From positions 40,001 to 96,916 of the forward strand of contig WVSO01000005.1 of the NCBI GenBank assembly GCA_015689745.1: 56,916 nucleotides of DNA. The letters are read 5' to 3'. The notes beneath the pieces were generated by a model. The model made no database searches. It was not told where the DNA came from and saw only the letters and a program-made list of their open reading frames with translations. Positions 19,485 through 52,720 of this stretch are shown one piece after another. Every line of letters begins with the position of its first letter. Position 1 is the stretch's first letter. Source of the stretch: Rhodobacterales bacterium HKCCSP123 (GTDB lineage: Bacteria > Pseudomonadota > Alphaproteobacteria > Rhodobacterales > Rhodobacteraceae). Made by a program: the position numbers and the translations under genes.

Positions 19485-19559
19485 GGCGCCGGAAAACTCG
19501 AGTTTTCCGTGCCGAAAAACTGCAGTTTTTCGTGCCGTTTTCCTGCAGGAAAACGCGCC
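19485..19559. repeat. Palindrome array A (three 20-bp perfect palindromes, 23-bp period)
   Basis: Three loop-free perfect palindromes lie at 19490-19509 (CGGAAAACTCGAGTTTTCCG), 19513-19532 (CGAAAAACTGCAGTTTTTCG) and 19536-19555 (CGTTTTCCTGCAGGAAAACG). They are separated by the identical spacer TGC, so the axes are exactly 23 bp apart. GGCG (19485-19488) and CGCC (19556-19559) bracket the set. The array lies 6 bp after the deoC stop codon and 19 bp before the aldehyde dehydrogenase start. There is no T-tract. It is structurally like arrays B, C and D in this window. Confidence 0.95.
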
Positions 19560-19565
19560 CCATGT

Positions 19566-20567
19566 TCATGCCATCGGATGCCGCCAGCCCGCCGAGTAGG
19601 CGCCGGTGACATGGTGTTCGAGTTGCCGTTCGATGTCTCCCAGAAGCGAGGAGGCCCCGAAGCGGAAAAGGTCCGGCCGCAGCCAGTCGTCGCCCAGTTC
19701 CTCTTTCATCAGAGAGAGATAGACCAGCGCGTCCTTGGCCTTGGAGATGCCGCCCGCGGGCTTGTAGCCGATCTTGATGCCGGTTGCGGACTCAAAGGCG
19801 CGGATGGCGCGGATCATGGTGAGGGAAACGGGGAGCGTGGCGTTCACGCTTTCCTTGCCGGTGGAGGTCTTGATGAAATCGGCGCCCGCCATCATGCAGA
19901 CCAGCGAGGCCCGGGCGACGTTCCTGAGCGTCCCAAGCTCGCCGGTTGCGAGGATCGCCTTGACGTGGGCCTCGCCGCCGGCGGCGCGGAACTCGCGCAT
20001 CTCGTCGTAAAGCGCCTGCCAGTTTCCGGTCAGTACGTGGCGGCGGGAGATGACGATGTCGATCTCCTGCGCCCCGGCCTTCACGCTTTCCCCGATCTCC
20101 TTCACGCGCAGCGCGTAGGGTGAGAGGCCCGCTGGAAAGCCGGTGGAGACGGCGGCGACGGGTATGCCCGAACCCTCCAGCGCCTCGACGGCGGTCGGCA
20201 CCATCTCGTGATAGACACAGACGGCCCCGGTGGTCAGGTCGGGCAGGCCGAGCGCGTCCAGCAGATCGGCGCGCACCGGCTGCCGCGCCTTGGCGCATAG
20301 CCGCCGGACGCGGCCCGGCGTGTCGTCGCCCGCGAGCGTCGTCAGGTCGATGCAGGTGATCGCGCGGGCGAGCCAGGCGGCCTGGTAGTCCTTCTTCACC
20401 GTGCGGCGGCCGGGCAGCGTGGCCGCGCGGCGCTCGATGGCCGAGGTGTTCGCCTGGACCCGCGCCACCCAGTCGAGGTCGAGCGGCATCCCGGGATTGC
20501 GGGTGCGGTGCAGCTGCGGCAGTCGCTCCTGCATCAGCGGCGCGGTAGCGGTCTGTGTGGTGCTCAT
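19566..20567 (-). CDS. deoC: Deoxyribose-phosphate aldolase
   Basis: A 333-aa DeoC, which splits 2-deoxyribose-5-phosphate into acetaldehyde and glyceraldehyde-3-phosphate in the cytoplasm. The Schiff-base lysine motif ADFIKTSTGK and the second active-site segment GIKIGYKPAGGISKAKDA are clear. It belongs to the longer class with an N-terminal extension of about 70 residues (RTRNPGMPLDLDWV). The aldehyde dehydrogenase gene lies downstream, separated by palindrome array A; together they could carry deoxyribose to acetate. A TetR-style dyad lies upstream. Confidence 0.95.
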   Translation of the reverse strand: MSTTQTATAPLMQERLPQLHRTRNPGMPLDLDWVARVQANTSAIERRAATLPGRRTVKKDYQAAWLARAITCIDLTTLAGDDTPGRVRRLCAKARQPVRADLLDALGLPDLTTGAVCVYHEMVPTAVEALEGSGIPVAAVSTGFPAGLSPYALRVKEIGESVKAGAQEIDIVISRRHVLTGNWQALYDEMREFRAAGGEAHVKAILATGELGTLRNVARASLVCMMAGADFIKTSTGKESVNATLPVSLTMIRAIRAFESATGIKIGYKPAGGISKAKDALVYLSLMKEELGDDWLRPDLFRFGASSLLGDIERQLEHHVTGAYSAGWRHPMA

Positions 20568-20631
20568 GGGACGGGCCGGGCGTTCGGTCGGGTTGATGAA
20601 AGCCTCTCACGCGGGTCGGGCAAAGGCAAGC

Positions 20632-20647
20632 TTGACCAAACGGTCAA
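20632..20647. promoter_or_regulatory. Candidate TetR-type operator upstream of deoC
   Basis: TTGACC (20632-20637), AAAC, GGTCAA (20642-20647) is a perfect inverted repeat with a 4-nt spacer. It lies 65 bp upstream of the deoC start and 84 bp upstream of the divergent rpe start, so a bound repressor could cover either promoter. TTGACC-type dyads are common operators of TetR regulators. No regulator gene is adjacent. Confidence 0.5.
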
Positions 20648-20730
20648 ATTTCTGATCGGTGCCTCCATTGCGCGTGACAGCGCAGGGGCGAGGGGCTAAC
20701 AGGGCGGCGACTGCCAAGGGGGTGCCTGCC

Positions 20731-21420
20731 ATGCCGTTCGACCGTTCCATCAAGATCGCGCCGTCGATCCTGTCGGCCGATTTCGCCAATTTCGGGGCCG
20801 AGATCCGCGCGATCGAGGACCAGGGCGCCGATTGGGTCCATGTCGACGTGATGGACGGGCATTTCGTGCCCAACCTGACCTTCGGCCCGATGGCGGTGAA
20901 GGCGTTCAGGCCGCACGTGAAGACGGTGATGGACGTTCACCTGATGATCGCTCCCGTCGATCCCTATATCGACGCCTATGCCGATGCCGGTGCCGACGTG
21001 CTGACCGCCCATGTCGAGGCCGGGCCGCATATTCACCGGACCCTGCAGGCGATCAAGGCGGCGGGGATGAAGGCCGGCGTGGCGTTGAACCCCGGCACGC
21101 CTGCCGAGGCGGTGGCGCATCTGTTGGACATGGCGGACCTGATCTGCGTGATGACGGTCAATCCCGGCTTCGGCGGGCAGAAGTTCATCGACATGACCGC
21201 CAAGGTGCGCGCCCTGCGCGCGATGATCGGCGACCGTGAGGTGCATATCGAGATCGACGGCGGGGTGGATACGGGCACGGCGCCGCTGGTGGTGCAGGCG
21301 GGGGCCGATGTGCTGGTCGCGGGCTCGGCGGTGTTCCGGGGCGGGTCGGTGGATGCGCCCGAGGTCTATGGCGCGAACATCCGCGCGATCCGCGCGGCGG
21401 CCGAGGGGCCGGGCGCCTGA
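20731..21420 (+). CDS. rpe: Ribulose-phosphate 3-epimerase
   Basis: A 229-aa TIM-barrel enzyme interconverting ribulose-5-phosphate and xylulose-5-phosphate. Conserved motifs are present: SILSADFANFG, HVDVMDGHFVPNLTFGP with the metal-binding His and Asp, DVHLMI, TVNPGFGGQKF and EIDGGVDTGTA. AAGGGGG precedes ATG 20731 by 8 nt. It is divergent from deoC. Both feed the pentose phosphate pathway pool, though co-regulation is not shown. Confidence 0.96.
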   Translation: MPFDRSIKIAPSILSADFANFGAEIRAIEDQGADWVHVDVMDGHFVPNLTFGPMAVKAFRPHVKTVMDVHLMIAPVDPYIDAYADAGADVLTAHVEAGPHIHRTLQAIKAAGMKAGVALNPGTPAEAVAHLLDMADLICVMTVNPGFGGQKFIDMTAKVRALRAMIGDREVHIEIDGGVDTGTAPLVVQAGADVLVAGSAVFRGGSVDAPEVYGANIRAIRAAAEGPGA

Positions 21421-21451
21421 CGTCAATCCGGGTGCGGCAGCGCCGGGCGGT

Positions 21452-21469
21452 CTGACATGGAAACGTCAT
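21452..21469 (+). promoter_or_regulatory. Pho-box-like site
   Basis: CTGACAT-GGAA-ACGTCAT matches 11 of 14 conserved positions of the PhoB consensus (two CTGTCAT-like heptamers separated by 4 nt). A possible -10 hexamer, TAGCCT, begins 11 nt after it, and the start codon of the exported 5'-nucleotidase-like gene is 50 bp away. Spacing and target both suit phosphate-starvation control. Confidence 0.45.
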
Positions 21470-21519
21470 CGTTGGCGCTGTAGCCTGCGCCTGAAAGACC
21501 CTTGTCCCGGGGCATTCCG

Positions 21520-22896: not shown

Positions 22897-22903
22897 CGGA
22901 ATG

Positions 22904-22938
22904 GCGCCCCGCCCCGGGGTGAGGCCGGGACGGGGCGC
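22904..22938. terminator. Strong GC stem-loop between convergent genes
   Basis: GCGCCCCG-C-CCCGG (22904-22917) pairs with CCGGG-A-CGGGGCGC (22925-22938), with one mismatch and a 7-nt loop. It lies between the stops of the 5'-nucleotidase-like gene and ccr. There is no T-tract in either direction, so it is probably a factor-assisted bidirectional termination region. Confidence 0.5.
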
Positions 22939-22982
22939 TGAACCGGCACCGGGGGTGAGGCCCGGGCCATATGCGGATCGGC

Positions 22983-24278: not shown

Positions 24279-24370
24279 GGGCATGTCTCCGTTCCTTTGC
24301 CGATGCCGCAATGCGGAATCACTTTGCTGCTACTGCGAGAGATATCGCCCCGTGCGCAACAAAGTAAACA

Positions 24371-24387: not shown

Positions 24388-24393
24388 GAAATA

Positions 24394-25809: not shown

Positions 25810-25863
25810 GACGAAAGGAACGTGGCAGGTTTGGACAGCAGGGGCAACGGGCGCGGCCCGCGT

Positions 25864-28512: not shown

Positions 28513-28516
28513 CGTG

Positions 28517-39975: not shown

Positions 39976-40299
39976 ATGCCAGCCATCACCGCCGAGAGCA
40001 CCGCCCAGACCGTCATCACCACCTTCGAGACGACGCCCGGCCAATGCGCCGATCTGCTCGACGAGTTGCAGGCGGCCTATGCCGAGTTCATCTCGCGCCA
40101 GCCCGGATTCATCGGCGCGGGCCTGCATGTGAACGACGCGCAGACGCGGATCGCCAATTACTCGCAATGGCGGCGGCGCGAGGATTTCCAGGCGATGCTG
40201 CGCTCGGACGAGATGCGCAGCCGCAATCGCCGGATCGCCGCGCTTTGCCGGTCCTTCGAGCCCGTGCTCTACGACGTCGTCGCCCATTATGGCGCGTGA
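39976..40299 (+). CDS. Antibiotic biosynthesis monooxygenase (ABM) domain protein
   Basis: A 107-aa ferredoxin-like fold protein of the ABM superfamily. TVITTFETTPGQCADLLDELQAAYAEFISRQPGFIGAGLHVN and NYSQWRRREDFQAML follow the typical strand-helix pattern with W and R near the active site. Catalytic activity is unproven in most members. AGGAGG precedes ATG 39976 by 8 nt. It overlaps the DUF5665 gene by 11 bp. A decayed duplicate lies about 1.2 kb upstream. Confidence 0.82.
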   Translation: MPAITAESTAQTVITTFETTPGQCADLLDELQAAYAEFISRQPGFIGAGLHVNDAQTRIANYSQWRRREDFQAMLRSDEMRSRNRRIAALCRSFEPVLYDVVAHYGA

Positions 40300-40600
40300 G
40301 CCGAAGAAGACCGAGCCCGCACCGCCCGGCACGCTGGAGGAGGAGGTGCGCGCGTTGAGGCAGGAGATGACGCTCCTGCGCCAGCACAGGATGTTCCTGC
40401 TCTACCAGTCGGTGCCGCGGGTCCTCCTGTTCCGCTTCGCGAGCGGCATGGCGGTGGGTCTCGGCACGGTGATCGGCGCGACGGTGCTTCTGTCGCTCAT
40501 CATCTGGGCGCTCAGCCAGATCGAGTTCATCCCGATCATCGGCGAATGGTCGGTGCGCATCGCCGACGAGATCCAGACCCTGACGCAGAGCCCGGAATAG
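40289..40600 (+). CDS. DUF5665 domain-containing membrane protein
   Basis: A 103-aa protein with an N-terminal coiled-coil-like acidic helix (LEEEVRALRQEMTLLRQHRM) and one or two membrane segments (FASGMAVGLGTVIGATVLLSLIIWAL). The pattern fits DUF5665. It is translated from an ATG inside the 3' end of the ABM gene. Function is unknown. Confidence 0.8.
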   Translation: MAREPKKTEPAPPGTLEEEVRALRQEMTLLRQHRMFLLYQSVPRVLLFRFASGMAVGLGTVIGATVLLSLIIWALSQIEFIPIIGEWSVRIADEIQTLTQSPE

Positions 40601-40676
40601 GTCTTTCCTATCGTCGGTTGCACCGCGCGCCGGCGCGCCTACCTGTCCGGGTGAAACCAGGAAAGGAGCCTTGTCC

Positions 40677-40925
40677 ATGCAATGCCCCGTAGACGGCACC
40701 ACCCTCGTCATGGCCGACCGGCAGGGGGTCGAGATCGACTATTGCCCGCAATGCCGGGGCGTCTGGCTCGACCGGGGCGAGTTGGACAAGATCATCGAGC
40801 GGTCCGCGCCCGCGCCGCAGCCGGCGCGCGCCGCCCCACGGCCCGAGCGCGGGTACGACGATGACCGTGGTCACCAGAAGAAGAAGCGCCGCGGATCCTT
40901 CCTCGACGACATCTTCGATTTCTGA
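40677..40925 (+). CDS. TFIIB-type zinc ribbon protein
   Basis: An 82-aa protein with a zinc ribbon: CPVDG near the N-terminus and YCPQCRGVWLDRGELDKI, giving four Cys ligands. The tail is Ala/Pro-rich, then basic (HQKKKRRGS), and ends FLDDIFDF. This is the zf-TFIIB small-protein family of unknown function. AAGGAG precedes ATG 40677 by 8 nt. Its stop codon lies inside the perfect palindrome at 40922-40939. Confidence 0.88.
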   Translation: MQCPVDGTTLVMADRQGVEIDYCPQCRGVWLDRGELDKIIERSAPAPQPARAAPRPERGYDDDRGHQKKKRRGSFLDDIFDF

Positions 40926-40939
40926 AGCGATCGCTTCAG
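40922..40939. repeat. Single 18-bp perfect palindrome over a stop codon
   Basis: CTGAAGCGATCGCTTCAG is a loop-free perfect palindrome filling nearly all of the gap between the convergent zinc-ribbon and molybdenum hydroxylase genes. The zinc-ribbon stop codon lies within it. Its form matches the units of arrays A-D, but it occurs only once here. No T-tract is present. Confidence 0.85.
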
Positions 40940-40940
40940 G

Positions 40941-43040
40941 TCACGCGTTCAGCGCGTCCCAGATCCGGGACGGGCTGAACGGCATCTGAGGCGGCGCCTT
41001 GCCGGTGGGCCTGAAGGCATCGGTGATGGCGTTGATCAGCGCGGCGGGCGCGCCTGTCGTTGCGGCCTCGCCCACGCCCTTGGCCCCCAGCGGGTTCATC
41101 GGGCTTGGCGTTTCGGAATGCGACAGCACGAGCGGTGGCAGGTCGTCCGCGCGCGGCATGGCGTAATCCATGAAGCTGCCGGTCAGAAGCTGGCCGTCCG
41201 CATCCAGCGCGATGGCCTCGAGCATGGTCTCGCCCACGGCCTGTGCGAAGCCGCCGCGGATCTGCCCCTCGACCTGCACCGGGTTCACCATGACGCCCGT
41301 GTCGTCATGGGCATGCGCCTTGAGCAGCCGCGGAACACCCGTCTCGGCGTCGATCTCGACCAGCGCGGCATAGGCACCGAAGGCCCAGGCCTGGCCTGCG
41401 ACCTCGTATTTGCTCTCGGCGGTGACGGGCAGGGGGGCGCCCTCGGCGACCATTGCCTTGACCTTGGCGCAGGCCTCCATCAGGGCGCTGCCGCCGATGG
41501 CGGTGGCGCGGCTTCCGACGGCGCCCACGCCCTCGGCCACGGTGCCGGTGTCGCCCGCGTCGAGCGTGATCGCCTCCATCGGCAGGCCGAGCGCATCGGC
41601 GGCGATCTGCGAGAAGGCCGTCAGGCGGCCATGCCCCTGCTGCGTCGCGCCCGTGGCGATATGGGCGGTGCCGTCTGCGGTCAGCGTGACGCGCGCGTAT
41701 TCCCAGCCCGCCGCGGAGGGGTCGACGTAGAAGGCGATGCCAAGCCCGGCGATGCCGCCCGCGTCCCGGATCGCATCGCGCCGGGCGCGCAGCCCCTCGA
41801 GATCTGCGGCGATGGCGAAGGCGTCGAGGGCCGCGGCGTAATCGCCGGAATCGAGGTGGTTGCCGGTCGCAGTGTCATGCGGCATCGCCTCGGCCGGAAC
41901 GAGGTTGGCCTTGCGCAGCGCGATGGGGTCGCGGCCCGTCACCGCGGCGGCCTCGTCGATCAGCCGCTCGAGGATCACGTTCGCTTCGGGCCGCCCCGCG
42001 CCGCGGTAGATGGCGACGGGCGGGGTCGGATGGCTGTGGACCTCGGTCTCGATGTCGAGCGCGGGGATGACGTAGCCCGAGGGCAGGATGCGGCCTGCGT
42101 TGAAGGCGGGCATCAGGCCCGTGCCCGCGATCCAGCCGCCCACGGGCGCGTCGATCCGCGCCTCGAGGGCGAGAAAGCGGCCCTCGGCATCCAGCGCCAG
42201 CCGCCCGCGCGAGGTCAGGCCGCGGCCATGGGCGGCCGACAGGAACTCTTCGGACCGGGTGGCGATCCAGCGCACGTCACGCTTCAGCTGAAGCGCGGCC
42301 CAGGTCGCAAAAAGCTCTTCGGGATAGGCGAAGCCCTTCATCCCGAAGCCGCCGCCCACGTCGGGGGCGACGATGCGGATGCGGTCGGGATCGAGCTGCA
42401 GCACGCGCATCAGGTCGGTCTTGGTGCGGTGCGGGGTCTGGGTGGACTGGAAGATCGTCACGCCGTCCGTCTCGGCGTCGTAGCGGATCGCGACGCCGCG
42501 CGGCTCCATCGGCGAGGGGGCGACGCGGGGGTGGACCGTCTCGACCTCGACGACATGGGCGGCTTCGGCGAAGGCCTTTGCCGCGTTGCCCGATTGCCAG
42601 CGGCGGTGCGCGATGCGGCGGGGGTCTGGCAGGTCTTCGTCCTCGATCTCGAGGGCGATCAGGTCGACGGCATCGGCGGCGCGTGCCGGGCTGTCGGCGA
42701 AGACGGCCGCGACGGGTTCGCCGACGCAGCTGACGCGCTCGCGCGCGAGCATCGGGTAGGGCAGGGTGGCCTCGATCTCGAGGACGGGCAGCACGTGGGG
42801 CGAGGTCGTGGGTGGCAGGTCGGCGCCGGTGAGGACGGCATGGACGCCGGGGGCGGCGAGCGCCTCGGAGATGTCGATCCCGGCGATGCGGCCCGCGGCC
42901 ACGGGGCTGCGCAGGAAGGCGATGTGAAGCGGCTCGGTCAGCGCGATGTCGGCGGTGTAGCGGCCCTGACCCTTGAGAAGAGCCGGGTCCTCGCGCCGCG
43001 GGATCGCGGCCCCGATCATCTGGCTGGCTGGCTTGTTCAT
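40941..43040 (-). CDS. Xanthine dehydrogenase-family molybdopterin-binding large subunit (orphan)
   Basis: A 699-aa molybdenum hydroxylase large subunit. The N-terminal ald_xan domain starts MIGAAIPRREDPALLKGQGRYTADI. The active-site loop is IYRGAGRPEA, the form II (AYRGAGR-like) type rather than the CO-dehydrogenase CSFR type. The catalytic Glu is in KGVGEAATTGAP. The FAD (medium) and 2Fe-2S (small) subunit genes that normally accompany it are absent nearby. ATG 43040 is chosen from the homology-like start; the frame stays open upstream. Substrate unknown. It diverges from nadX. Confidence 0.88.
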   Translation of the reverse strand: MNKPASQMIGAAIPRREDPALLKGQGRYTADIALTEPLHIAFLRSPVAAGRIAGIDISEALAAPGVHAVLTGADLPPTTSPHVLPVLEIEATLPYPMLARERVSCVGEPVAAVFADSPARAADAVDLIALEIEDEDLPDPRRIAHRRWQSGNAAKAFAEAAHVVEVETVHPRVAPSPMEPRGVAIRYDAETDGVTIFQSTQTPHRTKTDLMRVLQLDPDRIRIVAPDVGGGFGMKGFAYPEELFATWAALQLKRDVRWIATRSEEFLSAAHGRGLTSRGRLALDAEGRFLALEARIDAPVGGWIAGTGLMPAFNAGRILPSGYVIPALDIETEVHSHPTPPVAIYRGAGRPEANVILERLIDEAAAVTGRDPIALRKANLVPAEAMPHDTATGNHLDSGDYAAALDAFAIAADLEGLRARRDAIRDAGGIAGLGIAFYVDPSAAGWEYARVTLTADGTAHIATGATQQGHGRLTAFSQIAADALGLPMEAITLDAGDTGTVAEGVGAVGSRATAIGGSALMEACAKVKAMVAEGAPLPVTAESKYEVAGQAWAFGAYAALVEIDAETGVPRLLKAHAHDDTGVMVNPVQVEGQIRGGFAQAVGETMLEAIALDADGQLLTGSFMDYAMPRADDLPPLVLSHSETPSPMNPLGAKGVGEAATTGAPAALINAITDAFRPTGKAPPQMPFSPSRIWDALNA

Positions 43041-43119
43041 CTCGCGCCCCCTGTCGTCCTTGCACCCGCGCCTGATACTGTGCCCCGGATCGGAAATGGC
43101 AAGACCGGAGGGACAGGCG

Positions 43120-43887
43120 ATGCAGGTGGCGGTGATCGGGGCGGGCGCGATCGGGCGCTGGGTGATCGAGGGCCTGCGCCGCGACGGGCTGGGACCCGTT
43201 GCGGTGATCCTGCGGAGCGGCGGCATGTCGGATGTGCCGGTCGTCGACTCCGTCGGCGCTTTGCCCGCGGGCGTCACGCATCTGGTGGATTGCGCCGGAC
43301 ACTCCGGCTTGGCGGCCCACGGGCCCGCCGCGCTGGTCGCGGGGATCGACGTGGTGACCCTGTCGCTGGGGGCGCTGGCGGATGCGGGGCTTGCCGCCGA
43401 ACTGGCCGCGGCGGCCGAGGCCGGCGGGGCGCGTTTGCACATGGCGAGCGGGGCGATCGGCGCGCTGGATGCGCTGCGGGCGGGAGCGGCGGGCGGGCTC
43501 ACCTCCGTGCGCTATACAGGCACCAAGCCGCCCTCGGGCTGGGCCGGTTCCCCGGCGGAGGAGGTGTTGGACCTGTCAGGGCTCACCGCGCCCGCGGTGC
43601 ATTTCGAGGGCACGGCCCGCGAGGCTGCGTTGCGCTATCCGAAGAACGCGAACGTGGCCGCCGCGGTGGCGCTGGCAGGGCTCGGCTTCGACGAGACCGC
43701 GGCGCGCTTGGTGGCCGATCCGGGGGCGGCCGGCAACATGCACGAGATCGAGGCAGAGGGGGCCTTTGGCCGCTTCCGCTTCGAGATCACGGGGGCGGCC
43801 TTGCCGGGCAACCCGCGCAGCTCGGCGCTGGCGGCGATGAGCGTGCTGGCCGAGGTCCGGCGGCTGCGGGCGCGGGTCACGACCTGA
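43120..43887 (+). CDS. nadX: L-aspartate dehydrogenase
   Basis: A 255-aa protein of the NadX family, which oxidises L-aspartate to iminoaspartate with NAD(P)+, the entry to de novo NAD synthesis. The Rossmann motif VAVIGAGAIGRWVIEGL is at the N-terminus, and LHMASGAIGALDAL, TGTKPPSGWAGSPA and ALRYPKNANVAAAVALAGLGF are family hallmarks. GGAGGGA precedes ATG 43120 by 6 nt; an in-frame ATG upstream (MARPEGQA) is less likely. Array B follows in the convergent gap. Confidence 0.88.
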   Translation: MQVAVIGAGAIGRWVIEGLRRDGLGPVAVILRSGGMSDVPVVDSVGALPAGVTHLVDCAGHSGLAAHGPAALVAGIDVVTLSLGALADAGLAAELAAAAEAGGARLHMASGAIGALDALRAGAAGGLTSVRYTGTKPPSGWAGSPAEEVLDLSGLTAPAVHFEGTAREAALRYPKNANVAAAVALAGLGFDETAARLVADPGAAGNMHEIEAEGAFGRFRFEITGAALPGNPRSSALAAMSVLAEVRRLRARVTT

Positions 43888-43902
43888 CGCGACGGGTCAG
43901 CG

Positions 43903-43990
43903 GGGCGGTGGAAGCCCGTTCGAACGGGCTTTTCGACGCGATTTCGAAATCGCGTTGGCAAGGCGCGTCGACGCGCCTTCTGCACCGCCC
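43903..43990. repeat. Palindrome array B (three 20-bp palindromes, 24-bp period, outer stem)
   Basis: Perfect loop-free palindromes lie at 43912-43931 (AAGCCCGTTCGAACGGGCTT), 43936-43955 (ACGCGATTTCGAAATCGCGT) and 43960-43979 (AAGGCGCGTCGACGCGCCTT). The axes are exactly 24 bp apart. GGGCGGTG (43903-43910) and CACCGCCC (43983-43990) form an 8-bp outer stem, so a single strand could fold as a cloverleaf-like four-way structure. It fills the gap between convergent nadX and the DUF2783 gene, ending 4 bp from the latter's stop. Confidence 0.95.
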
Positions 43991-43994
43991 GGTT

Positions 43995-44183
43995 TCAGCG
44001 TTTCGCCGCCTCCAGCGCCTCGCGGATCACCTGCAGGTCTCCGACGTGGTTCATCAGGATCAGGATGAGCCGCGCGTTCAGCGCCTCGCTCTCCTCGCGC
44101 GTCAGCCCGTCATGCGCGGCGATCAGCGCCTCGTAGGCATCGTCGGGGTTGGGCAGGTTCGGATCGAGCGTCAGGTGGGCCAT
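43995..44183 (-). CDS. DUF2783 domain-containing small protein
   Basis: A 62-aa protein, PNLPNPDDAYEALIAAHDGLTREESEALNARLILILMNHVGD, matching DUF2783. This family regularly accompanies FAD-dependent aromatic hydroxylases, so it is probably an accessory or stabilising subunit. Its ATG shares one base with the stop of the hydroxylase gene (TGATG), and it is the last cistron of the four-gene operon. Confidence 0.82.
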   Translation of the reverse strand: MAHLTLDPNLPNPDDAYEALIAAHDGLTREESEALNARLILILMNHVGDLQVIREALEAAKR

Positions 44184-45796
44184 CAGGCATCCCCCCCTTC
44201 GGCGCGGGCCAGGGCGCGGGCGAGTTTCTCGGCGTCACAAGCCGCCCAGCGGGCAGCGACATGGCTGTCGGGCCGGATCAGGTAGAGCGCCCGCTCGGCC
44301 TGTCCGAGATAGCGCTCGGCCAGGAGCGGCTCGGTCCTTGGGTCGAAGCCCAGGACCGGGAGATCGCGCGGCAGCCGCGGCAGCGTCGCGCCGAGGTTCA
44401 GCAGGGCAAAGCCCTGTCCGAGATGGTCGAGCAGGTAGCTGTCGTCCGCCAGCCGCGCATCGGGGCAGGACGCGCCGGGGCGGCTTCGGGCAGGTCCGCC
44501 CGGCAGGGCATCGCGCGTGACGAGCGGCGAGCCGCCGTAGACCGAGGGCACCGAGAGCCGGCCCGAGTTCACCATGGGGCGCGCGAAGGGCGCATGCGCG
44601 GCCAGATGCAGCACCGCGTCCCGGAAAACGCGGGATTGCGGTGTCTTGGGTGTGATGAAATCTGTCGAGCGGGTGGAATTGCGGATGTTCTCGTCGGCGG
44701 CATGGATGCGCTCGGCGTCATAGCTGTCGAGCAGGCTCTCGGGGTAGTCGCCCCGGATCACGCCCGCCAGCTTCCAGCCGAGGTTGTCGGCGTCCTGCAT
44801 GCCCGAATTCGCCCCGCGCGCGCCGAAGGGGCTGACCTGGTGCGCGGCGTCGCCCGCAAAGATCACGCGCCCGTGGCGGAATTTCTCCATCCGGCGGCAC
44901 TGGAAGGTGTAGATCGAGGTCCAGTCGAGCTCGTACTCCACGTCCGGGCCAAGCATCTGGTCGACGCGTTTGCGCACGCGGCCCGGCTCCAGCTCGGCCT
45001 TGCGGTCGATGTCCCAGCCGAGCTGGAAGTCGATGCGCCAGATGTCGTCGGGTTGCTTGTGCAGAAGCGCCGAGGCGCCCGACTTGAACCACGGCTCGAA
45101 CCAGAACCAGCGTTCGGTCGGGAAATCGGCTTTCATCTTCACGTCGGCGATGAGGAAATTGTCCTCGAAGACGCGCCCTTCGAAGCCCAGCCCCATCATC
45201 TCGCGGATCGGCGATTTCGCCCCGTCGCAGGCGATCAGCCAGTCGGTCGTGATCGTGTAGGGCCCGTCCGGCGTATCGAGCTGCAGCGTGACGCCGTCCT
45301 CGGCCGCCTCCATCGCGGTCAGGCGGTTGCGGCCCCGGATCTCGATGGGGGCACCTTGCGCTTTCGCGCGATCGACGGCCTCGACAAGGAAGCGTTCGAA
45401 CCAGGGTTGCTGGAGGTTGATGAAGGCCGGGTAGCGGTGGCCGTCCTCCGGGAGAAGATCGAAGCTGAACACCTCGTCCCGGTCGTGGAACACGCGGCCC
45501 CGGTTCCAGATCACGCCCTTCTCCACCATCTGCGGCCCGCAGCCCAGCCGATGCGCGATCTCCAGCGTGCGCTTGGCGAAGCAGATCGCGCGGGAGCCCT
45601 GGCCGACGCCCTCGTGATCGTCCAGCACCAGCACCGGCACGCCGCGCAGCGCAAGGTCGAGGCCGGTCGCCACCCCGATCGGCCCGCCGCCCACGATGGT
45701 GACGGGGTGATGGGCGGGTGTCGGCGCGCCTTGGTCGGCAGAGCGCGCGTAGGGGTAGAGGCGGAAGGCCAGCGGGTAACGGTCCTGGTAGGTCAT
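44183..45796 (-). CDS. FAD-dependent aromatic hydroxylase (MhpA/PheA-like)
   Basis: A 537-aa class A flavoprotein monooxygenase. The FAD-binding GxGxxG is VTIVGGGPIGVATGLDLALRG, and the second FAD motif is VIFAGDAAHQVSPFGARGANSGMQDADNL. The C-terminal thioredoxin-like part has GPARSRPGASCPDARL. It resembles 3-(3-hydroxyphenyl)propionate hydroxylase and related enzymes. With MBL and DinB partners and DUF2783 it suggests an aromatic catabolic module of unknown substrate. ATG 45796 overlaps the DinB stop (ATGA). Confidence 0.88.
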   Translation of the reverse strand: MTYQDRYPLAFRLYPYARSADQGAPTPAHHPVTIVGGGPIGVATGLDLALRGVPVLVLDDHEGVGQGSRAICFAKRTLEIAHRLGCGPQMVEKGVIWNRGRVFHDRDEVFSFDLLPEDGHRYPAFINLQQPWFERFLVEAVDRAKAQGAPIEIRGRNRLTAMEAAEDGVTLQLDTPDGPYTITTDWLIACDGAKSPIREMMGLGFEGRVFEDNFLIADVKMKADFPTERWFWFEPWFKSGASALLHKQPDDIWRIDFQLGWDIDRKAELEPGRVRKRVDQMLGPDVEYELDWTSIYTFQCRRMEKFRHGRVIFAGDAAHQVSPFGARGANSGMQDADNLGWKLAGVIRGDYPESLLDSYDAERIHAADENIRNSTRSTDFITPKTPQSRVFRDAVLHLAAHAPFARPMVNSGRLSVPSVYGGSPLVTRDALPGGPARSRPGASCPDARLADDSYLLDHLGQGFALLNLGATLPRLPRDLPVLGFDPRTEPLLAERYLGQAERALYLIRPDSHVAARWAACDAEKLARALARAEGGDA

Positions 45797-46314
45797 CGTG
45801 GGTATTCCTCCGCGGTTGGGGCGCGGTCGTAGACAAGGAAGAATTCGTCGAGCTGCGGCGGTGCGATCCCCGCATGGGACAGTTGCACATGGGCCTGCCC
45901 GCGGTGGTGGATCTGGTGCTGGAAGAGATGGGGAAGAAGGTCGCCCACCCGCTCGCTCACCGGCCCCTCGCGACGGTCGGTCGTCACGATGCGGTCGAGG
46001 TCGCCCTCGGCCAGTTCCATGCAGAAATGGAGAAGGCGCGCATCGGCCTCGGCCTGCTCGGCCCCGAGTGTCATCGGGTCGGTCTCGTCCTCGCGGTCGA
46101 AGACGGCACGACCGAGGCCGCCCCCGGTCAGCGCGTCGACATAGTAGAGATCGACGACGAGGATATGGTTCAGCGTCCCGGCCAGCGACCGGAAGAACCC
46201 CGGTCGCGGCGCGGTGAAGGCCCCCACGGGCAGGCCGGCGACGGCTGCGGAGAGCGTCCGGTTGGCCCAGGCATTGTTCGAGGCGAAACCGACATAGGGG
46301 TGCACCGCCGTCAC
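45793..46314 (-). CDS. DinB family protein
   Basis: A 173-aa four-helix DinB-fold protein. The metal-binding histidines are seen in LNHILVVDLYYVDALTG and HLFQHQIHHRGQAHVQL. Some family members are maleylpyruvate isomerase-like or mycothiol/bacillithiol-dependent transferases, fitting an aromatic ring-cleavage context. The start is best at GTG 46314, which overlaps the MBL stop (GTGA); the longer open frame to 46332 lies inside the MBL gene. Confidence 0.8.
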   Translation of the reverse strand: MTAVHPYVGFASNNAWANRTLSAAVAGLPVGAFTAPRPGFFRSLAGTLNHILVVDLYYVDALTGGGLGRAVFDREDETDPMTLGAEQAEADARLLHFCMELAEGDLDRIVTTDRREGPVSERVGDLLPHLFQHQIHHRGQAHVQLSHAGIAPPQLDEFFLVYDRAPTAEEYPR

Positions 46315-47258
46315 TCCTGCAGCGCCGCCCACATCTCGGCATCCCGTTCGGCGGTCCAGATGCGCGGATGGTCGAGGCCGCGCGCCTCGTCATAGGCGCG
46401 GGCGATGTTGAAGGGGAGGCAGTGCTCGTAGATCGCGAAATCGCTGAACTTGGGGTCGCAGACGGCGCGGGCGGCGGCCATGGCTTCCTTGAGCGAACCG
46501 CCCTTCGCGGCGATACGGGCGACAGGCTCGTAGGTCGATTGCACGAAATCTCGGGTGCTTTCGATGGCCAGCTCCACCTCCGGCCCGATCAGGGCATCGC
46601 CGCGCCCCGGCGCGATGGCGCGGGGCTGAAATCCCGCGATGACGTCGAGCGTGTCGCTCCAATCGGCGAAATGCCCGTCGCCGCAATAGCAGGCCGAGTG
46701 GTATTCCACGATGTCGCCGGTGAACATCACCTCTTCATCCGGCACCCAGATCGCCGCATCGCCCGCCGTGTGCGCGCGTCCCGGCACGAAGATGTCGACG
46801 CGGCGGTTGCCGAGGTAGACGGTCATGGCCTCTGAAAATGTCGTCGTGGGCCAGGTCAGGCCGGGGATTTCCTCGTGCCCTTCGAAGAGGCGCGGGAAGC
46901 GGGCGAATTCGCTGTCCCAATCCTCCTGACCGCGCTCCACGACCATGCTGCGCGCGGTGTCGGACATTATGACCTGATCGGCACCATAGGCCGAGGCACC
47001 CAGCACGCGGACGGCGTGGTAATGGGTCAGGACAAGGTGCGAGATCGGCTTGTCGGTGACGGAACGGACGCAGTCGATCACCTTGCGCGCAAGGCGCGGG
47101 GTGGCCTGCGCCTCGACGATCATCACGCTCTCGTCGCCGATGATGACGCCGGAATTCGGGTCACCCTCGGCCGTGAAGGCATAGAGCCCCTCGCCGATTT
47201 GCGTGAAGCTGATTTCCTTCTTGGTCAGGTCGCCTGCCGATGCGAAGGCCTTGGCCAT
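46311..47258 (-). CDS. MBL-fold metallo-hydrolase with altered zinc motif
   Basis: A 315-aa metallo-beta-lactamase-fold protein, first gene of the four-gene operon. The strand before the site reads HLVLTHYHAVRVLGAS, so the canonical HxHxDH is HYHAVR: the Asp and third His are replaced by Val and Arg. Downstream AHTAGDAAIW and FTGDIVEYHSACYCGD keep family residues. The substrate is unknown. GGAGG lies 6 nt before ATG 47258; the frame stays open upstream but antisense to another gene. Confidence 0.82.
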   Translation of the reverse strand: MAKAFASAGDLTKKEISFTQIGEGLYAFTAEGDPNSGVIIGDESVMIVEAQATPRLARKVIDCVRSVTDKPISHLVLTHYHAVRVLGASAYGADQVIMSDTARSMVVERGQEDWDSEFARFPRLFEGHEEIPGLTWPTTTFSEAMTVYLGNRRVDIFVPGRAHTAGDAAIWVPDEEVMFTGDIVEYHSACYCGDGHFADWSDTLDVIAGFQPRAIAPGRGDALIGPEVELAIESTRDFVQSTYEPVARIAAKGGSLKEAMAAARAVCDPKFSDFAIYEHCLPFNIARAYDEARGLDHPRIWTAERDAEMWAALQE

Positions 47259-47396
47259 TCGATTCCTCCCTCTGCTCGGCGGGCAGGTTAATGCAGATGC
47301 AACGATCCGTCCACGCGCCCTCTGCCGCTGGACAGTGGTGCTGCTGCTGCTAGGGTCTCGCGCGAGCAATGGGCCGTGACAACAAGGGGGTGGATG

Positions 47397-48281
47397 ATGG
47401 CGAAGCTTGCATTTCTGGGGCTGGGCGTGATGGGCGCGCCGATGGCGGCGCATCTGAAAAACGCGGGCCACGAGGTGACGGTCTACAATCGCACCACGGC
47501 CAAGGCCGAGGCCTGGGCCGAGACGAACGGCGGCACCTGGGCCGCCACTCCGCGCGAGGCGGCGGAGGGCTGCGATTTCGTGATGGCCTGCGTCGGGAAC
47601 GACGACGATCTGCGCTCGGTCGTGCTCGGCGCGGACGGCGCGCTGGCGGGGATGACGGAGGGGTCGATCTTCGTCGACCACACCACCGTTTCGGCGACCG
47701 TGACGCGCGAACTCGCCGCCGAGGCCGCGGCCAAGGGTGTGGGCTATGTCGATGCGCCCGTCTCGGGCGGGCAGGCGGGGGCCGAGAACGGCCAGCTTGC
47801 GATCATGTGCGGCGGTGCCGAGGCGCATTTCGCCGCCGCCGAGCCGGTCGTCGCCGCCTATTCCAAGGCCACGATCCGCTTCGGCGAGGTCGGCGCGGGC
47901 CAGTTGACCAAGATGGTCAACCAGATCTGCATCGCGGGGCTGGTGCAGGCGATGTCCGAGGGGCTGTATTTCGCAATGAAGGCGGGGCTCGACCCCAAGG
48001 CGGTGGCCGGGCTGGTCAGCCAGGGTGCCGGTGGGTCGTGGCAGTTGGCCAATCGCGCGGGCACCATGGTGGACAACCAGTTCAACCACGGCTTCGCCGT
48101 CGACTGGATGCGCAAGGATCTTGGCATCGCCATCGGGCAGGCGAAGGAGCTGGGCGTCTCGCTGCCCGTCACGTCCATCGTCGACCAGTTCTACGCCGAT
48201 GTGCAGCAGCTGGGCGGCGGGCGCTGGGACACCTCGAGCCTGATCCAGCGCTTCCGCGCGATGAACGGGGAGCTGGGCTGA
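47397..48281 (+). CDS. NAD(P)-dependent beta-hydroxyacid dehydrogenase
   Basis: A 294-aa 3-hydroxyisobutyrate dehydrogenase-family protein. The N-terminal Rossmann motif is FLGLGVMGAPMAAHLKNAGH, the substrate-binding DAPVSGGQAGAENGQL is near residue 118, and the catalytic lysine is in GAGQLTKMVNQ. It could be a 3-hydroxyisobutyrate, tartronate semialdehyde or glyoxylate-type reductase. AAGGGGG precedes ATG 47397 by 6 nt; ATG 47394 is the alternative. mnmH follows directly. Confidence 0.87.
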   Translation: MAKLAFLGLGVMGAPMAAHLKNAGHEVTVYNRTTAKAEAWAETNGGTWAATPREAAEGCDFVMACVGNDDDLRSVVLGADGALAGMTEGSIFVDHTTVSATVTRELAAEAAAKGVGYVDAPVSGGQAGAENGQLAIMCGGAEAHFAAAEPVVAAYSKATIRFGEVGAGQLTKMVNQICIAGLVQAMSEGLYFAMKAGLDPKAVAGLVSQGAGGSWQLANRAGTMVDNQFNHGFAVDWMRKDLGIAIGQAKELGVSLPVTSIVDQFYADVQQLGGGRWDTSSLIQRFRAMNGELG

Positions 48282-48286
48282 CCCCC

Positions 48287-49348
48287 TTGGCCTACCGCTT
48301 CACCGATCCGGCCGCGCTTCGGGCGGCGGGCTTCGACGCGATCATCGACGTGCGCAGCCCGTCCGAGTTCGCCGAGGATCACGTCCCCGGCGCGGTCTCG
48401 ATGCCTGTCCTGTCGGATGCGGAGCGGGCCGAGGTCGGCACGATCTACGTGCAGGACAGCCCGTTCAGGGCGCGCAAGATCGGCGCGGCGCTGGTCGCCC
48501 GCAACGCGGCGCGGCATATCGAGGAGCGGCTGATGGGCCATGGCGGCGGCTGGCGGCCCCTGGTCTATTGCTGGCGCGGCGGGCAGCGGTCGGGGAGTTT
48601 CGCCTCGATCCTGCAGCAGATCGGCTGGCGGGCCGAGGTGCTGGAGGGCGGCTACCGGACCTGGCGGCGGCATGTCGTGGCACGGCTTTACGATGCCGAG
48701 CTGCCGTTTCGCGTGATCCGGCTGGACGGGTTAACGGGGACGGCGAAAACGGATGTGCTGAAGCGCGTGGGGGCGCTGGGCGGGCAGGTGCTGGACCTCG
48801 AGGGGCTTGCGCGGCATCGCGGGTCGATCCTTGGCGACATCGACGGGGCGCAGCCCGCGCAGAAAGGTTTCGAGAGTGCGTTGGTCGCGGCGCTGGAGGG
48901 GCTGGACCCCGCCCGCCCCCTGCTGGTCGAGGCGGAATCGGCGCGCATCGGCGCGCTGCGGCTGCCGCCCGCGCTTTGGGTGGCGATGCGCGACGCGCCC
49001 CGCATCGTGCTGGAGGCCGCGCCGGAGGCGCGCGCGCGGTATCTTGCAGGCCAATACGCCGATCTTGTCGCGGATCGGGGCGGGCTGACACGCCGCCTGA
49101 ACGGGCTGCGCGCGCTTGCGGGGCACGCCACCGTCGATGGCTGGCTCGATCTGCTCGCGGCGGGCGAGATCGAGGCGCTGGCCCGCGGCCTGATCGAGGC
49201 GCATTACGACCCGGCCTATGGCCGGTTGCGGCGCGAGGACGCCAGCCCGGTCATCGCGCGCCTCAAGGCGGGCGCGCTGGACGTGGCCTCCATCGAGGCC
49301 ACGGCGCGTGCGGTGCTGGCGCTGCCGGATTTTGCAAAATCCGGCTGA
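48287..49348 (+). CDS. mnmH: tRNA 2-selenouridine synthase
   Basis: A 353-aa MnmH (SelU/YbbB), which converts 2-thiouridine at tRNA position 34 to geranylated and selenated forms. The rhodanese domain has VDVRSPSEFAEDHVPGA, then the catalytic Cys in YCWRGGQRSGS. The C-terminal P-loop domain starts at GLTGTAKTDVLKRVG. No ATG fits; TTG 48287 (MAYRFTDPAALRAAGF), 5 bp after the upstream stop, is the likely start. The last eight codons and the stop are made of array C palindrome sequence. No selD is in the window. Confidence 0.85.
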   Translation: MAYRFTDPAALRAAGFDAIIDVRSPSEFAEDHVPGAVSMPVLSDAERAEVGTIYVQDSPFRARKIGAALVARNAARHIEERLMGHGGGWRPLVYCWRGGQRSGSFASILQQIGWRAEVLEGGYRTWRRHVVARLYDAELPFRVIRLDGLTGTAKTDVLKRVGALGGQVLDLEGLARHRGSILGDIDGAQPAQKGFESALVAALEGLDPARPLLVEAESARIGALRLPPALWVAMRDAPRIVLEAAPEARARYLAGQYADLVADRGGLTRRLNGLRALAGHATVDGWLDLLAAGEIEALARGLIEAHYDPAYGRLRREDASPVIARLKAGALDVASIEATARAVLALPDFAKSG

Positions 49349-49434
49349 GAGCCTTGCAAGGCTCTCAAGGGGCCGCCTGCGCGGCCCGGGAGGTCCTTGC
49401 AAGGACCTCCGCGAAAGCCTTGCAAGGCTTTCGC
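49324..49434. repeat. Palindrome array C (five units, 21-23-bp period)
   Basis: Five palindromes: 49324-49345 (22 bp, centred TTTGCAAA), 49346-49367 (22 bp, core GCCTTGCAAGGC), 49370-49387 (GGGCCGC and GCGGCCC around a 4-nt loop), 49389-49410 (22 bp, core TCCTTGCAAGGA) and 49411-49434 (24 bp, core GCCTTGCAAGGC). Axes are 22, 22, 21 and 23 bp apart. All but the third are loop-free and perfect. Unit 1 encodes the last mnmH codons and unit 2 begins with its TGA stop. The array ends about 70 bp before valS. Confidence 0.95.
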
Positions 49435-49505
49435 CCGCCCCCCTTTCCCTTGGGCGGCGCATTGGGTAACTGACACCCGGACCCCGAGACGAGAGGCGTG
49501 GACCC

Positions 49506-52500
49506 ATGGACAAGAGCTTTGACGCGGCGGCCGCCGAGGCGCGCATCTATGCCGACTGGGAAGCGAAAGGCTGCTTCAAGGCCGGCGCGAATGCCAGGCC
49601 GGGGGCGGAGCCCTATGCCATCATGATCCCGCCGCCGAACGTGACGGGGGTCCTGCACGTCGGCCATGCCTTCAACAACACGCTGCAGGACGTGCTGATC
49701 CGCTGGCACCGGATGCGCGGCTTCGACACGCTCTGGCAGCCGGGCACCGACCATGCGGGGATCGCCACGCAGATGGTCGTCGAGCGGGAGCTTGCCAAGG
49801 AAGGCAAGTCGCGCCGCGACATGACGCGGGAGGAGTTCCTGTCCCATGTCTGGGCCTGGAAGCGGGCATCGGGCGGCACGATCCGCCAGCAGCTCAAGCG
49901 CCTCGGTGCCTCCTGCGACTGGTCGCGCGAGGCGTTCACCATGTCCGGTGCCGAGGGTGCGCCCGAGGGCGAGGACGGCAACTTCCACGATGCCGTCATC
50001 AAGGTCTTCGTGGACATGTACGAAAAAGGCTACATCTACCGCGGCAAGCGGCTGGTGAACTGGGACCCGCATTTCGAGACCGCGATCAGCGATCTCGAGG
50101 TCGAGAACATCGATACCGCCGGTTTCATGTGGCATTTCAAGTATCCGCTCGCCGGTGGACAAACCTATGAGTATGTCGAAAAAGATGAAGACGGGAACGT
50201 GACCCTGCGCGAAACGCGGGATTACATCTCGATCGCCACGACCCGCCCCGAGACCATGCTGGGCGACGGCGCGGTGGCTGTTCATCCTGATGACGCGCGT
50301 TACAAGCCCATCGTCGGCATGCTCTGCGAAATCCCGGTGGGGCCGAAGGAACACCGCCGCCTGATCCCGATCATCACCGACGACTACCCGGACCCGGAGT
50401 TCGGTTCGGGCGCGGTGAAGATCACCGGGGCGCATGACTTCAACGACTACGGTGTCGCCAAGCGTGGCGGCATCCCCTGCTACCGGCTGATGGACACCAA
50501 GGCCCATCTGCGCGACGACGGCGCGCCCTATGCCGAGGCCGCCGCGGTGGCGCAGGAGGTGGCCGAGGGCAAGCGGGTGCTCTCCGAGACCGAGGCCGAT
50601 GCGCTGAACCTCGTCCCCGACCATTTGCGCGGGCTGGACCGGTTCGAGGTGCGCAAACGCGTGGTCGACGAGATCACCGCCGAAGGGCTCGCCGTGATGA
50701 CCCGCGCGGATGATCCGCGGTTGGGCAAGGCCGCCGTCAAGGCGGGGGAAGAGGGCGCGGAAGACCTGGTTCCCCTCGTCGAGGCCAAGACGATCACCCA
50801 GCCTTATGGCGACCGGTCCAAGGTCGTGATCGAGCCGATGCTGACCGATCAATGGTTCGTCGACACCGCCAAGATCGTCGGCCCGGCGCTCGATGCCGTA
50901 CGCGACGGGCGCACCCGGATCATGCCGGAACAGCACCGCAAGGTGTATTTCCACTGGCTCGAGAACATCGAGCCCTGGACCATCTCGCGCCAGCTCTGGT
51001 GGGGGCACCAGATCCCGGTGTGGTACGGGTTCGACCTTGGCAGCCACGGGTTCACGGATGACGAAGGCGACGGCGCGCTCGACATGGTCGAGATGGGCCG
51101 ACTGCTGTCTGCGCAGACGCTTCTGAAAGGTGACGAGCGCCACCATTGCGCCGCCGATTTCGAGAGCGTCGCGGGCCAGTTCGCCGATGTGCTGGCCGGT
51201 CTGCCGGTGCCGCTGAACCATGCCGCGGTCACCGAGGTCGCCGACCGCGACGCGGCCGCGCATGCGTTGGCCGAAAGCCTTGCCGCCTACGAGATGACCG
51301 GCGATCCCACCAGGCTCGTCTATCCCGTCTGGCGCGACGCGGACGTGCTCGACACCTGGTTCTCCTCCGGCCTCTGGCCCATCGGGACGCTGGGCTGGCC
51401 CGAGGACACGCCGGAGCTGAGGCGGTATTTCCCGACCTCGACCCTCGTCTCGGGCTTCGACATCATCTTCTTCTGGGTCGCCCGGATGATGATGATGCAG
51501 CTCGCCGTCGTGGGCGACGTGCCCTTCCGCGATGTCTATGTCCACGCGCTCGTCCGGGACGAGAAGGGGCGCAAGATGTCGAAGTCGATCGGCAACGTGC
51601 TCGACCCGCTGGAGCTGATCGAGGAGTTCGGCGCGGATGCGCTGCGCTTCACGTTGACCAGCATGGCCGCGATGGGGCGTGACCTGAAGCTGTCGAAGGA
51701 CCGCATCGCGGGCTATCGCAACTTCGGCACGAAGCTCTGGAACGCCGCCCGCTTCGCCGAGATGAACGACTGCAAGCCGGTCGCGGGCTTCGATCCCGCC
51801 TCGGTCACGCAAACCGTGAACAAGTGGATCGTGGGCGAGACCGCCCGCGCCCGCTTGGCGCATGACGAGGCGCTTGGGGCCTACCGCTTCAACGACGCGG
51901 CGAACGGGCTTTACGCCTTCGTCTGGGGCAAGGTCTGCGACTGGTATGTCGAATTCGCCAAGCCCCTGTTGGCCTCGGGCGACGAGGCGGTGATCGCCGA
52001 GACCCGCGCGACGATGGCCTGGGTCATCGACCAGTGCCTGATCCTTCTGCACCCCACGATGCCCTTCATCACCGAAGAGCTTTGGGGCGAGATCGCGCCG
52101 CGCGAGACCATGCTGGTGCATGCCGATTGGCCGACTTACGGCGACGAACTGATCGACGCGGAGGCAGACCGCGAGATGGGCTGGGTCATCGGCCTGATCG
52201 AAGAGGTCCGCTCGGTGCGCCAGCAGATGCATGTGCCCGCAGGCCTCAAGGTGCAGCTCTTGCAGGTGGAGCTGGACGAGAAGGGGCAGGCGGCCTTCGA
52301 CCGCAACGCGGCGATGATCGAGCGGCTGGCGCGCCTGTCCGAGGTCACGCGGGTCGGCGAGATGCCCAAGGGCGCCGTCACCGTGGCCGCCGAAGGCGCG
52401 GTCTTCGGCCTGCCCATCGCGGAGCTCATTGACGTGGCCGAGGAGAAGGCGCGGCTCGAGAAGGTGCTGGAGAAGCTCGGCAAGGAGCTGGGTGGGCTGC

Positions 52501-52640
52501 GCGGGCGGCTGAAGAACCCCAAGTTCATCGAAAGCGCACCCGAGGAGATCGTGGAGGAAACCCGCGAGAACCTCGCCGCGCGTGAAGAGGAAGAGGGCAA
52601 GATCCGCGCGGCGCTGGAGCGGTTGTCGGCGATCGGCTAA
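49506..52640 (+). CDS. valS: Valyl-tRNA synthetase
   Basis: A 1044-aa class Ia enzyme charging tRNA-Val. The HIGH motif is [12 protein letters not shown], the KMSKS motif is [10 protein letters not shown], and the editing domain lies between them ([19 protein letters not shown]). The C-terminal coiled coil ([20 protein letters not shown]) that contacts tRNA is intact. It is longer than the E. coli enzyme by about 90 residues, mainly from an insertion near residues 520-600. It is flanked on both sides by palindrome arrays (C and D). Confidence 0.97.
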
Positions 52641-52641
52641 G

Positions 52642-52720
52642 GGGCTGGCGCAAAACTGCAGTTTTGCGCGCCGGAAATCTCGAGATTTCCGGGGAGGAAA
52701 ACCCGGGTTTTCCTGCGCCC
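52642..52720. repeat. Palindrome array D (three units, 23-bp period)
   Basis: Perfect loop-free palindromes lie at 52648-52669 (22 bp, GCGCAAAACTG half), 52671-52692 (22 bp, CCGGAAATCTC half) and 52695-52714 (AGGAAAACCCGGGTTTTCCT). Axes are at 52658/9, 52681/2 and 52704/5, exactly 23 bp apart. GGGC (52642-52645) and GCCC (52717-52720) bracket the set. The array begins one base after the valS stop codon. No T-tract is present. Confidence 0.95.

Follow-up and report, generated by a model that had tools for sequence, protein, structure and literature searches.

Short palindromic sequences in the gaps between bacterial genes have been described in several settings. Repetitive extragenic palindromes (REPs) and bacterial interspersed mosaic elements (BIMEs) are dispersed, clustered, intergenic palindromes whose palindromicity is maintained by paired changes (PMC2817692; studies are cited here by PubMed Central (PMC) identifier, for the parts of each that were available); REPs are conserved in sequence, imperfect and looped, alternate in orientation, are linked to REP-associated tyrosine transposases (RAYTs) and, for most of those listed, carry a GTAG/GTGG-type foot. 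Bidirectional Rho-independent terminators have hairpins that serve convergent genes; their stems evolve by compensation, under stronger constraint where one terminator serves two genes, and in Bacillus cereus they change mainly via G-U intermediates (PMC5381666). Stem-loops of convergent gaps and the paired DNA-uptake sequences of Neisseria are enriched between tail-to-tail genes (PMC1852404, PMC1590033), the preference of stem-loops for convergent gaps being already known (PMC1590033). In this work we describe arrays of phased, loop-free tandem palindromes at gene 3' ends in a stretch of 56,916 nucleotides, hereafter the window, from Rhodobacterales bacterium HKCCSP123 (assembly GCA_015689745.1, contig WVSO01000005.1, positions 40,001 to 96,916). 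These arrays share dispersal, clustering and paired change with REPs and BIMEs, two-sided hairpins with bidirectional terminators, and enrichment between tail-to-tail genes with convergent-gap stem-loops and uptake sequences. Unlike REPs, they have free arms and mostly perfect, symmetric palindromes; unlike Rho-independent terminators, they have three to five serial units, no U-tract, no excess of G-U pairs and a conserved centre; and whereas a DNA-uptake sequence is one fixed motif, they fix just centre and phase. They also recall the PstI palindromes of Neurospora mitochondria and the fungal double-hairpin elements, which are likewise short, dispersed and GC-rich, some centred on CTGCAG, but are organelle elements of conserved sequence. 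In agreement with the initial annotation of this DNA, which knew of no named repeat with these properties, no description of the array family was found among open-licence PMC titles and abstracts. What appears to be new is a form that is tandem, loop-free and locked in phase and whose arms covary freely.

A re-reading of the window and a palindrome scan placed the four arrays at 19485-19559, 43903-43990, 49324-49434 and 52642-52720 (arrays 1 to 4), as first annotated; the spacings between axes, measured anew, are again 23/23, 24/24, 22/22/21/23 and 23/23 bp, and 13 of the 14 units are indeed perfect palindromes of 20-24 bp, the exception being unit 3 of the array at 49324. Unit centres fall into three classes (TTGCAA; CTGCAG/CTCGAG; TTCGAA). 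The whole window holds 13 palindromes of at least 20 bp (arms of at least 10), every one inside the four arrays, against 16 in total in 50 dinucleotide shuffles, that is 0.32 per window. The enrichment over a shuffled control that the initial annotation had called for extends to wider samples: 34 palindromes with arms of at least 10 against 1.0 expected in 422 kb of the source genome (G000; the window plus 20 stretches), and 16 arrays against 0-2 in 10 shuffles (mean 0.5) in 490 kb of a relative, G011, where two of the 16 (at 42580 and 256917) have GC-rich looped units unlike the others. The G000 stretches come largely from contigs holding the class B motif or from around motif matches, and those of another relative, G010, were taken around class A (TTGCAA-centred) matches and thus partly selected for containing arrays; G011 C1:1-490000, from a contig picked for holding mnmH, is the sole sample free of motif-based choice. 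Scaled up, this would amount to roughly 100 arrays per genome.

The anatomy of the unit emerges from 165 units chosen by TTGCAA phase alone, with arms ignored (74 from G000, 19 from G011 and 72 from G010). Positions 3-8 from the axis are 97-100% Watson-Crick paired, against 29-74% expected from base composition; pairing is 92% at position 9 and 32-79% farther out, depending on the genome, which defines an inner palindrome of about 18 bp. Among the 1,155 pairs at positions 3-9 there are 1,125 Watson-Crick, 4 G-U, 6 A-C and 20 other. When the units are reduced to 56 distinct ones, 96.9% of cells are paired and 152 are changed on both sides; arm covariation reaches 0.864 versus 0.212 in shuffles, with a maximum of 0.226 when partners are slid, and 0/500 shuffles attain any of these three values. 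Axis-to-axis spacing is 22 bp (69 cases), 23 (44), 21 (2) or 24 (1), and class A spacers are mostly 2-3 variable bases, without a fixed tetranucleotide. Palindromes of at least 18 bp are mainly intergenic (116/127 in the G000 stretches, 50/58 in G011), and these intergenic ones are centred on TGCA or TCGA in 104/116 and 42/50 cases, while shorter background palindromes are centred mostly on CGCG, GCGC, CCGG or GGCC. The central gap is zero in 116/150 (G000) and 50/97 (G011) of the intergenic hairpins with arms of at least 9. The earlier statement that form and phase are conserved but not sequence holds for the arms, which vary freely as pairs; it fails for the centre, which is conserved, and some neighbouring arm pairs are found at more than one locus (11/51 adjacencies against 4.6 in shuffles; 14/1000 reach it). 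Within a class the centre is fixed and the arms recur in part, so sequence is partly conserved.

Placement points to gene 3' ends. Each of the 16 arrays in the G011 sample occupies a gap with a gene 3' end in it and would be usable from both strands; nine are convergent, seven tandem and none divergent, among gaps of at least 70 bp that number 45 convergent, 130 tandem and 79 divergent (Fisher p = 0.0036 for 3'-end versus divergent gaps, p = 0.006 for convergent versus tandem). The 39 arrays of the G000 stretches divide into 20 convergent, 11 tandem, 0 divergent, 5 at an edge and 3 'inside' genes; one of the last, C35:35130, resembles a pair arisen by chance in coding sequence and was excluded from later steps, and a few GC/AT hairpin pairs unlike the main classes (e.g. 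C1:21007, C144:63422) stayed in the counts. These two belong to a second small repeat, sighted three times (G000 C1:21007-21050, C144:63422-63468 and a row with GAATTTTCgtaaGAAAATTC), in which a GC-rich hairpin (CGCGCCGC-n4-GCGGCGCG or shorter) and an AT-rich one (GAATTTTC-...-GAAAATTC) stand 24-25 bp apart. Of the 18 tandem arrays (G011 and G000 together), 17 lie closer to the upstream stop than to the following start, and in several convergent gaps the array takes up the space from one stop to the other, as in G011 gap 96, where 5 and 4 nt are left. In the window, array 3 overlaps the mnmH stop codon (49346-49348); the distance to the stop of the gene upstream is 10 nt for array 1, 24 nt for array 2 and 7 nt for array 4. 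Gene contexts come from a home-made finder, retrained with a codon-position GC rule, which agrees with NCBIfam-supported genes around the arrays and was applied to other genera without retraining for them; 4 of the 165 TTGCAA-phased units lie in a gap that it labelled divergent. Taken with the arm covariation, the placement of the G011 arrays supports the 3'-end structural element that the initial annotation had proposed.

The comparison of orthologous gaps reveals arm turnover with compensatory changes, likewise foreseen there as a check. Between G000 and the farther relative G011, four collinear arrays (12 units) hold 82 inner pairs with 8 compensatory changes and 1 single change; stem pairs are thus kept by compensatory change, as in a bidirectional hairpin. 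Between G000 and the close relative G010 (11 arrays, 37 units), 1/257 inner pairs and 2/74 core pairs have changed, compared with 13/61 outer pairs and 15/58 spacer bases; adding the excluded arrays gives 271 inner pairs with 2 compensatory and 1 single change (12 arrays, 39 units). Segments shorter than 40 bases and G010_L251 are left out of all these counts. The clean G010 set also omits array 92648, whose unit content differs (83912 is already out, at under 40 bases), and the clean G011 set omits the non-collinear 92648, 83912, 89324, C68:29733 and C155:43148; units needing gaps to align were skipped, 5 (G010) and 16 (G011) over all arrays and 4 and 5 in the clean sets. Template switching at quasi-palindromes, a mutational attractor, could keep such perfection without any function, and would account for perfect palindromes, centre included, and for the rarity of half-way states beside the compensatory changes of collinear arrays. 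However, with spacers about 26% diverged, many matched double changes would be expected from neutral copying, and the collinear arrays of G000 and G010 show 0 in 257 inner pairs; 3'-end placement and the fixed centre and phase are also left unexplained, which makes this origin most improbable. Neutral templated hairpin repair alone, one of the explanations first offered, is disfavoured because stems are nearly unchanged in close relatives whose spacers have diverged by a quarter.

An array can hold its site through a change of units. Array 4 shows units being lost as well as paired change. Its version in G005 has six units, of which the first, third and fourth are retained in G000 and the first three in G010 and G003, where the third reads GGACAT/ATGTCC in place of GGAAAT/ATTTCC. 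The gap between mnmH and valS holds a class A array in G000, G003 and G010, two class B-like units in G011, and no array in nine other relatives read, including G002, G004 and G005. In Rhodobacteraceae bacterium HLUCCO18, of another genus, the same gap has its own array of three hairpins with differing centres (a tcgc loop, GCCGGC and CACGTG), which hints that the gap has been used repeatedly. Window array 2 (TCGA-centred) and G000 C2:6543 (TGCA-centred) have similar arms in reversed order, and from their sequences look like one element on opposite strands with the centre exchanged in all units. In the G011 C1 ortholog of the window gap that contains array 2 (43887-43995), several looped hairpins stand in place of the array, of the types gtag-CCCGGGCC-tt-GGCCCGGG and gtaga-CCGGGCT-tc-AGCCCGG; they look like classical REPs with a GTAG foot, judging from the letters, though no Y1 transposase was found in G011.

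The arrays are a dispersed family in Roseicyclus (Rhodobacteraceae), G000 and G010 being assigned to one genus, and other genera contain arrays like them. The count of phased TTGCAA pairs (TTGCAA-15..18-TTGCAA) is 60 in G000, 64 in G010, 65 in G003 and 85 in G011 (0 in reversed-pattern controls) and 1-5 in nine other Roseicyclus genomes (controls 0-1); among 148 other genomes of the family, one per genus, the highest count is 18, followed by 9 (controls up to 3). The class B core AAAACTSSAGTTTT is present in 12/13 Roseicyclus genomes and, family-wide, in just 4/149, the own genome counted. TTCGAA-centred pairs are elevated in some other genera, up to 20 against 0-6 in controls (148 genomes); of 15 such loci read from five genomes, most carry tandem palindromes of this form (none in L285, and a single perfect unit beside a decayed one in each of L279 and L280), and 11/15 have the motif no more than 80 nt away from a predicted gene end. 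Eighty named Rhodobacterales loci (1.56 Mb) gave 11 array rows, while shuffling each locus once gave 0; four rows come from L065 (Roseicyclus sp. Amp-Y-6), one of them in coding sequence. A search for plasmid homologs, tried with array 2 alone, matched none, and the one pattern searched in viral contigs, AGAGCCTTGCAAGGCTCT, gave 0. A separate stretch, TTCGAAGCTTTC...GGGCTTCGAA, recurs across several genera, in at least about a dozen genomes among those listed, and is probably not an array but a conserved sequence, either coding or regulatory.

Such a distribution could reflect a dispersed non-autonomous palindromic repeat of REP/BIME type, spread by an enzyme that requires hairpins. The expansion of class A in 4 of 13 Roseicyclus genomes, the class swap in the mnmH-valS gap and the recurrence of neighbouring arm pairs would all fit. 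Identity with RAYT-linked REPs or BIMEs was nevertheless rejected, although the extragenic location is shared with them: a search for Y1 transposases (PF01797) matched none of the 13 Roseicyclus genomes and 5 of 14 control genomes, although single misses are possible since the Roseicyclus genomes are 73-99.7% complete, and no GTAG/GTGG-type foot was seen beside a palindrome in the four window arrays, as judged by reading. In addition, stems differ among copies while pairing holds, and array positions often persist between species (the G010 stretches being partly chosen for arrays). We therefore regard spread as a mobile repeat as an unlikely account of the family.

A second described system to be weighed is the intrinsic, Rho-independent bidirectional terminator, since hairpins just past stop codons and in convergent gaps are general in bacteria (PMC1852404, PMC1590033). 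In predicted folds every array forms separate hairpins (z of -3.3 to -6.2 on the six strands tested). An outer stem enclosing them into a cloverleaf, suggested by the folds, is absent from the orthologs of arrays 1 and 2 that were read and is not claimed; flank complementarity is slightly above that of shuffled partners (mean 4.68 vs 4.31 over 38 arrays; 5/300 reach it). A terminator consensus scan of 40000-56916 returned 6 sites against 7.3 in shuffles, none of them at arrays 2 and 3 and one overlapping array 4, with a stem drawn from two adjoining units. Together with the lack of U-tracts given below, this renders ordinary intrinsic termination very unlikely. U-tract terminators do seem to exist in the source genome, as suggested by a canonical terminator-like hairpin with a TTTTTT tail at 56364-56338 (minus strand), near a tRNA gene at 56019-56105. 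That tRNA is the sole match in the window that reaches an Rfam gathering score, no Rfam family being found at an array at that score.

We consider it most likely, although the chances appear about even, that these are two-way hairpin arrays acting at the RNA level on gene 3' ends, where they would stop exonucleases and/or read-through. The RNA level is favoured by the anchoring at stop codons, by the absence of arrays from divergent gaps in G011 and by two-sided use in convergent gaps. The mRNA stabiliser or Rho/RNase roadblock of the initial annotation is possible and is the reading that we prefer. A platform for a protein that reads the DNA duplex along its arms is disfavoured: the arms are arbitrary in sequence yet paired and covarying, which makes such a protein unlikely, and folding within a strand is the simplest reason for the pairing. 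Kissing of self-complementary loops was also considered and is no general explanation, class B arrays mixing TGCA, TCGA and CCGG.

Several observations weigh against an RNA-level 3'-end function. None of 65 transcribed tails from 38 G000 arrays has a U-tract (a T-run of at least 4 within 12 nt), which argues against an ordinary terminator. In 37 tandem units there are 0 G-U, 3 A-C and 10 other mismatches, where selection on RNA predicts that G-U is tolerated on the sense strand; in convergent gaps used from two sides, G-U on one strand would be A-C on the other, and so not tolerated. Conservation of the centre nearly equals that of the stem, and its palindromic form often survives a change of letters (TGCA, TCGA, CCGG); a plain RNA loop needs no palindromic centre, so its retention counts against RNA. 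By two of five covariation measures, the number of pairs changed on both sides and that of further pair types, the units are not above shuffles. When non-collinear arrays are kept in the G011 comparison, 110 inner pairs (7 arrays, 16 units) show 9 compensatory and 9 single changes. Finally, orthologous sites are sometimes empty or decayed, and arrays that can be lost in some relatives are therefore useful rather than essential, no single one being indispensable.

Part of this evidence suits an action at the DNA level, in which the arrays would be kept as extruded hairpins or cruciforms with TNNA loops for a protein that recognises their structure and organises, cuts or copies them, while their location at gene ends would reflect no more than promoter avoidance. 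Strict Watson-Crick pairing on both strands, tandem gaps included, the palindromic centre often retained through changes, and perfect centres are in line with this idea, the last in contrast to the inverted repeats behind bacterial stop codons, which in 118,019 genomes have mainly 4-5 bp spacers (PMC13155455). Nevertheless, arrays hug stop codons beyond what mere promoter avoidance would give, and no candidate protein was found, Y1 transposases being the sole proteins searched for. Convergent gaps, moreover, accumulate positive supercoils, which oppose extrusion. On balance DNA-level folding appears rather doubtful, but is a serious rival.

Each unit is an inner 18-bp palindrome of nine pairs from the axis, and the 4-6 weakly constrained bases between inner cores give the phase of 22-24 bp; under the RNA-level reading, the central four bases, mostly UGCA or UCGA, would form the loop in RNA. 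With arrays beginning a few bases past the stop codon, and in convergent gaps often running from stop to stop, any transcript entering an array, whichever side it comes from, would fold into a series of similar hairpins. These may block 3'-to-5' exonucleases such as polynucleotide phosphorylase (PNPase) and RNase R as well as antisense read-through, polymerase release being probably due to Rho and not to a U-tract, and serial units would leave at least one hairpin free while the terminating ribosome covers the nearest. In this regard, that stable structures halt PNPase is a hypothesis put forward for 3' ends in Rhodobacter sphaeroides (PMC7866481).

The individual units of the window are as follows. 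Array 1 (class B) comprises CGGAAAACTCGAGTTTTCCG (19490-19509), CGAAAAACTGCAGTTTTTCG (19513-19532) and CGTTTTCCTGCAGGAAAACG (19536-19555), the last facing the stop of the upstream gene deoC (deoxyribose-phosphate aldolase; 19566-20567, minus strand, start codon uncertain); downstream lies a gene of the aldehyde dehydrogenase superfamily (17114-19465, minus strand), assigned from matches under curated cut-offs. Array 2 (class C) occupies a convergent gap with AAGCCCGTTCGAACGGGCTT (43912-43931), ACGCGATTTCGAAATCGCGT (43936-43955) and AAGGCGCGTCGACGCGCCTT (43960-43979). Array 3 (class A) follows mnmH (tRNA 2-selenouridine synthase; 48287-49348, plus strand, start codon uncertain) with TTGCAA-centred units at 49324-49345, within the final mnmH codons, 49346-49367, which starts with the stop TGA, 49389-49410 and 49411-49434 (24 bp); the imperfect unit at 49370-49387, GGGCCGC-CTGC-GCGGCCC, has a 7-bp stem and a 4-nt loop (CTGC). 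At the end of mnmH (window 49324-49348), the first palindrome thus lies inside the gene and determines its final residues; in G004 and G012 mnmH ends without it and the array is absent, which gives the impression of an array that entered at the stop codon and altered the C-terminus. Array 4 (class B), past the plus-strand gene valS (valine--tRNA ligase; 49506-52640), consists of GCGCAAAACTGCAGTTTTGCGC (52648-52669), CCGGAAATCTCGAGATTTCCGG (52671-52692) and AGGAAAACCCGGGTTTTCCT (52695-52714).

Together, our findings describe a repeat able to hold its place, form and centre during arm turnover. Half-changed pairs are scarce, in the centre as well as on both strands; this looks like a stricter regime than that of the terminators of Bacillus cereus, as far as these are described (PMC5381666), and calls for an explanation, be it RNA use on both strands or DNA folding. 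We tentatively suggest, as a possibility short of probable, a novel two-strand structural class in which phased, loop-free palindromes with pairing selected on both strands, a self-complementary TNNA centre, a 22-24 bp phase and free arms would be read by a structure-specific factor setting the 3' ends of genes throughout Rhodobacteraceae, alongside termination by U-tracts and by Rho. To our knowledge, 3' end formation in GC-rich alphaproteobacteria is poorly understood, and the arrays offer concrete, numerous and comparative test objects for how transcripts end in these bacteria.

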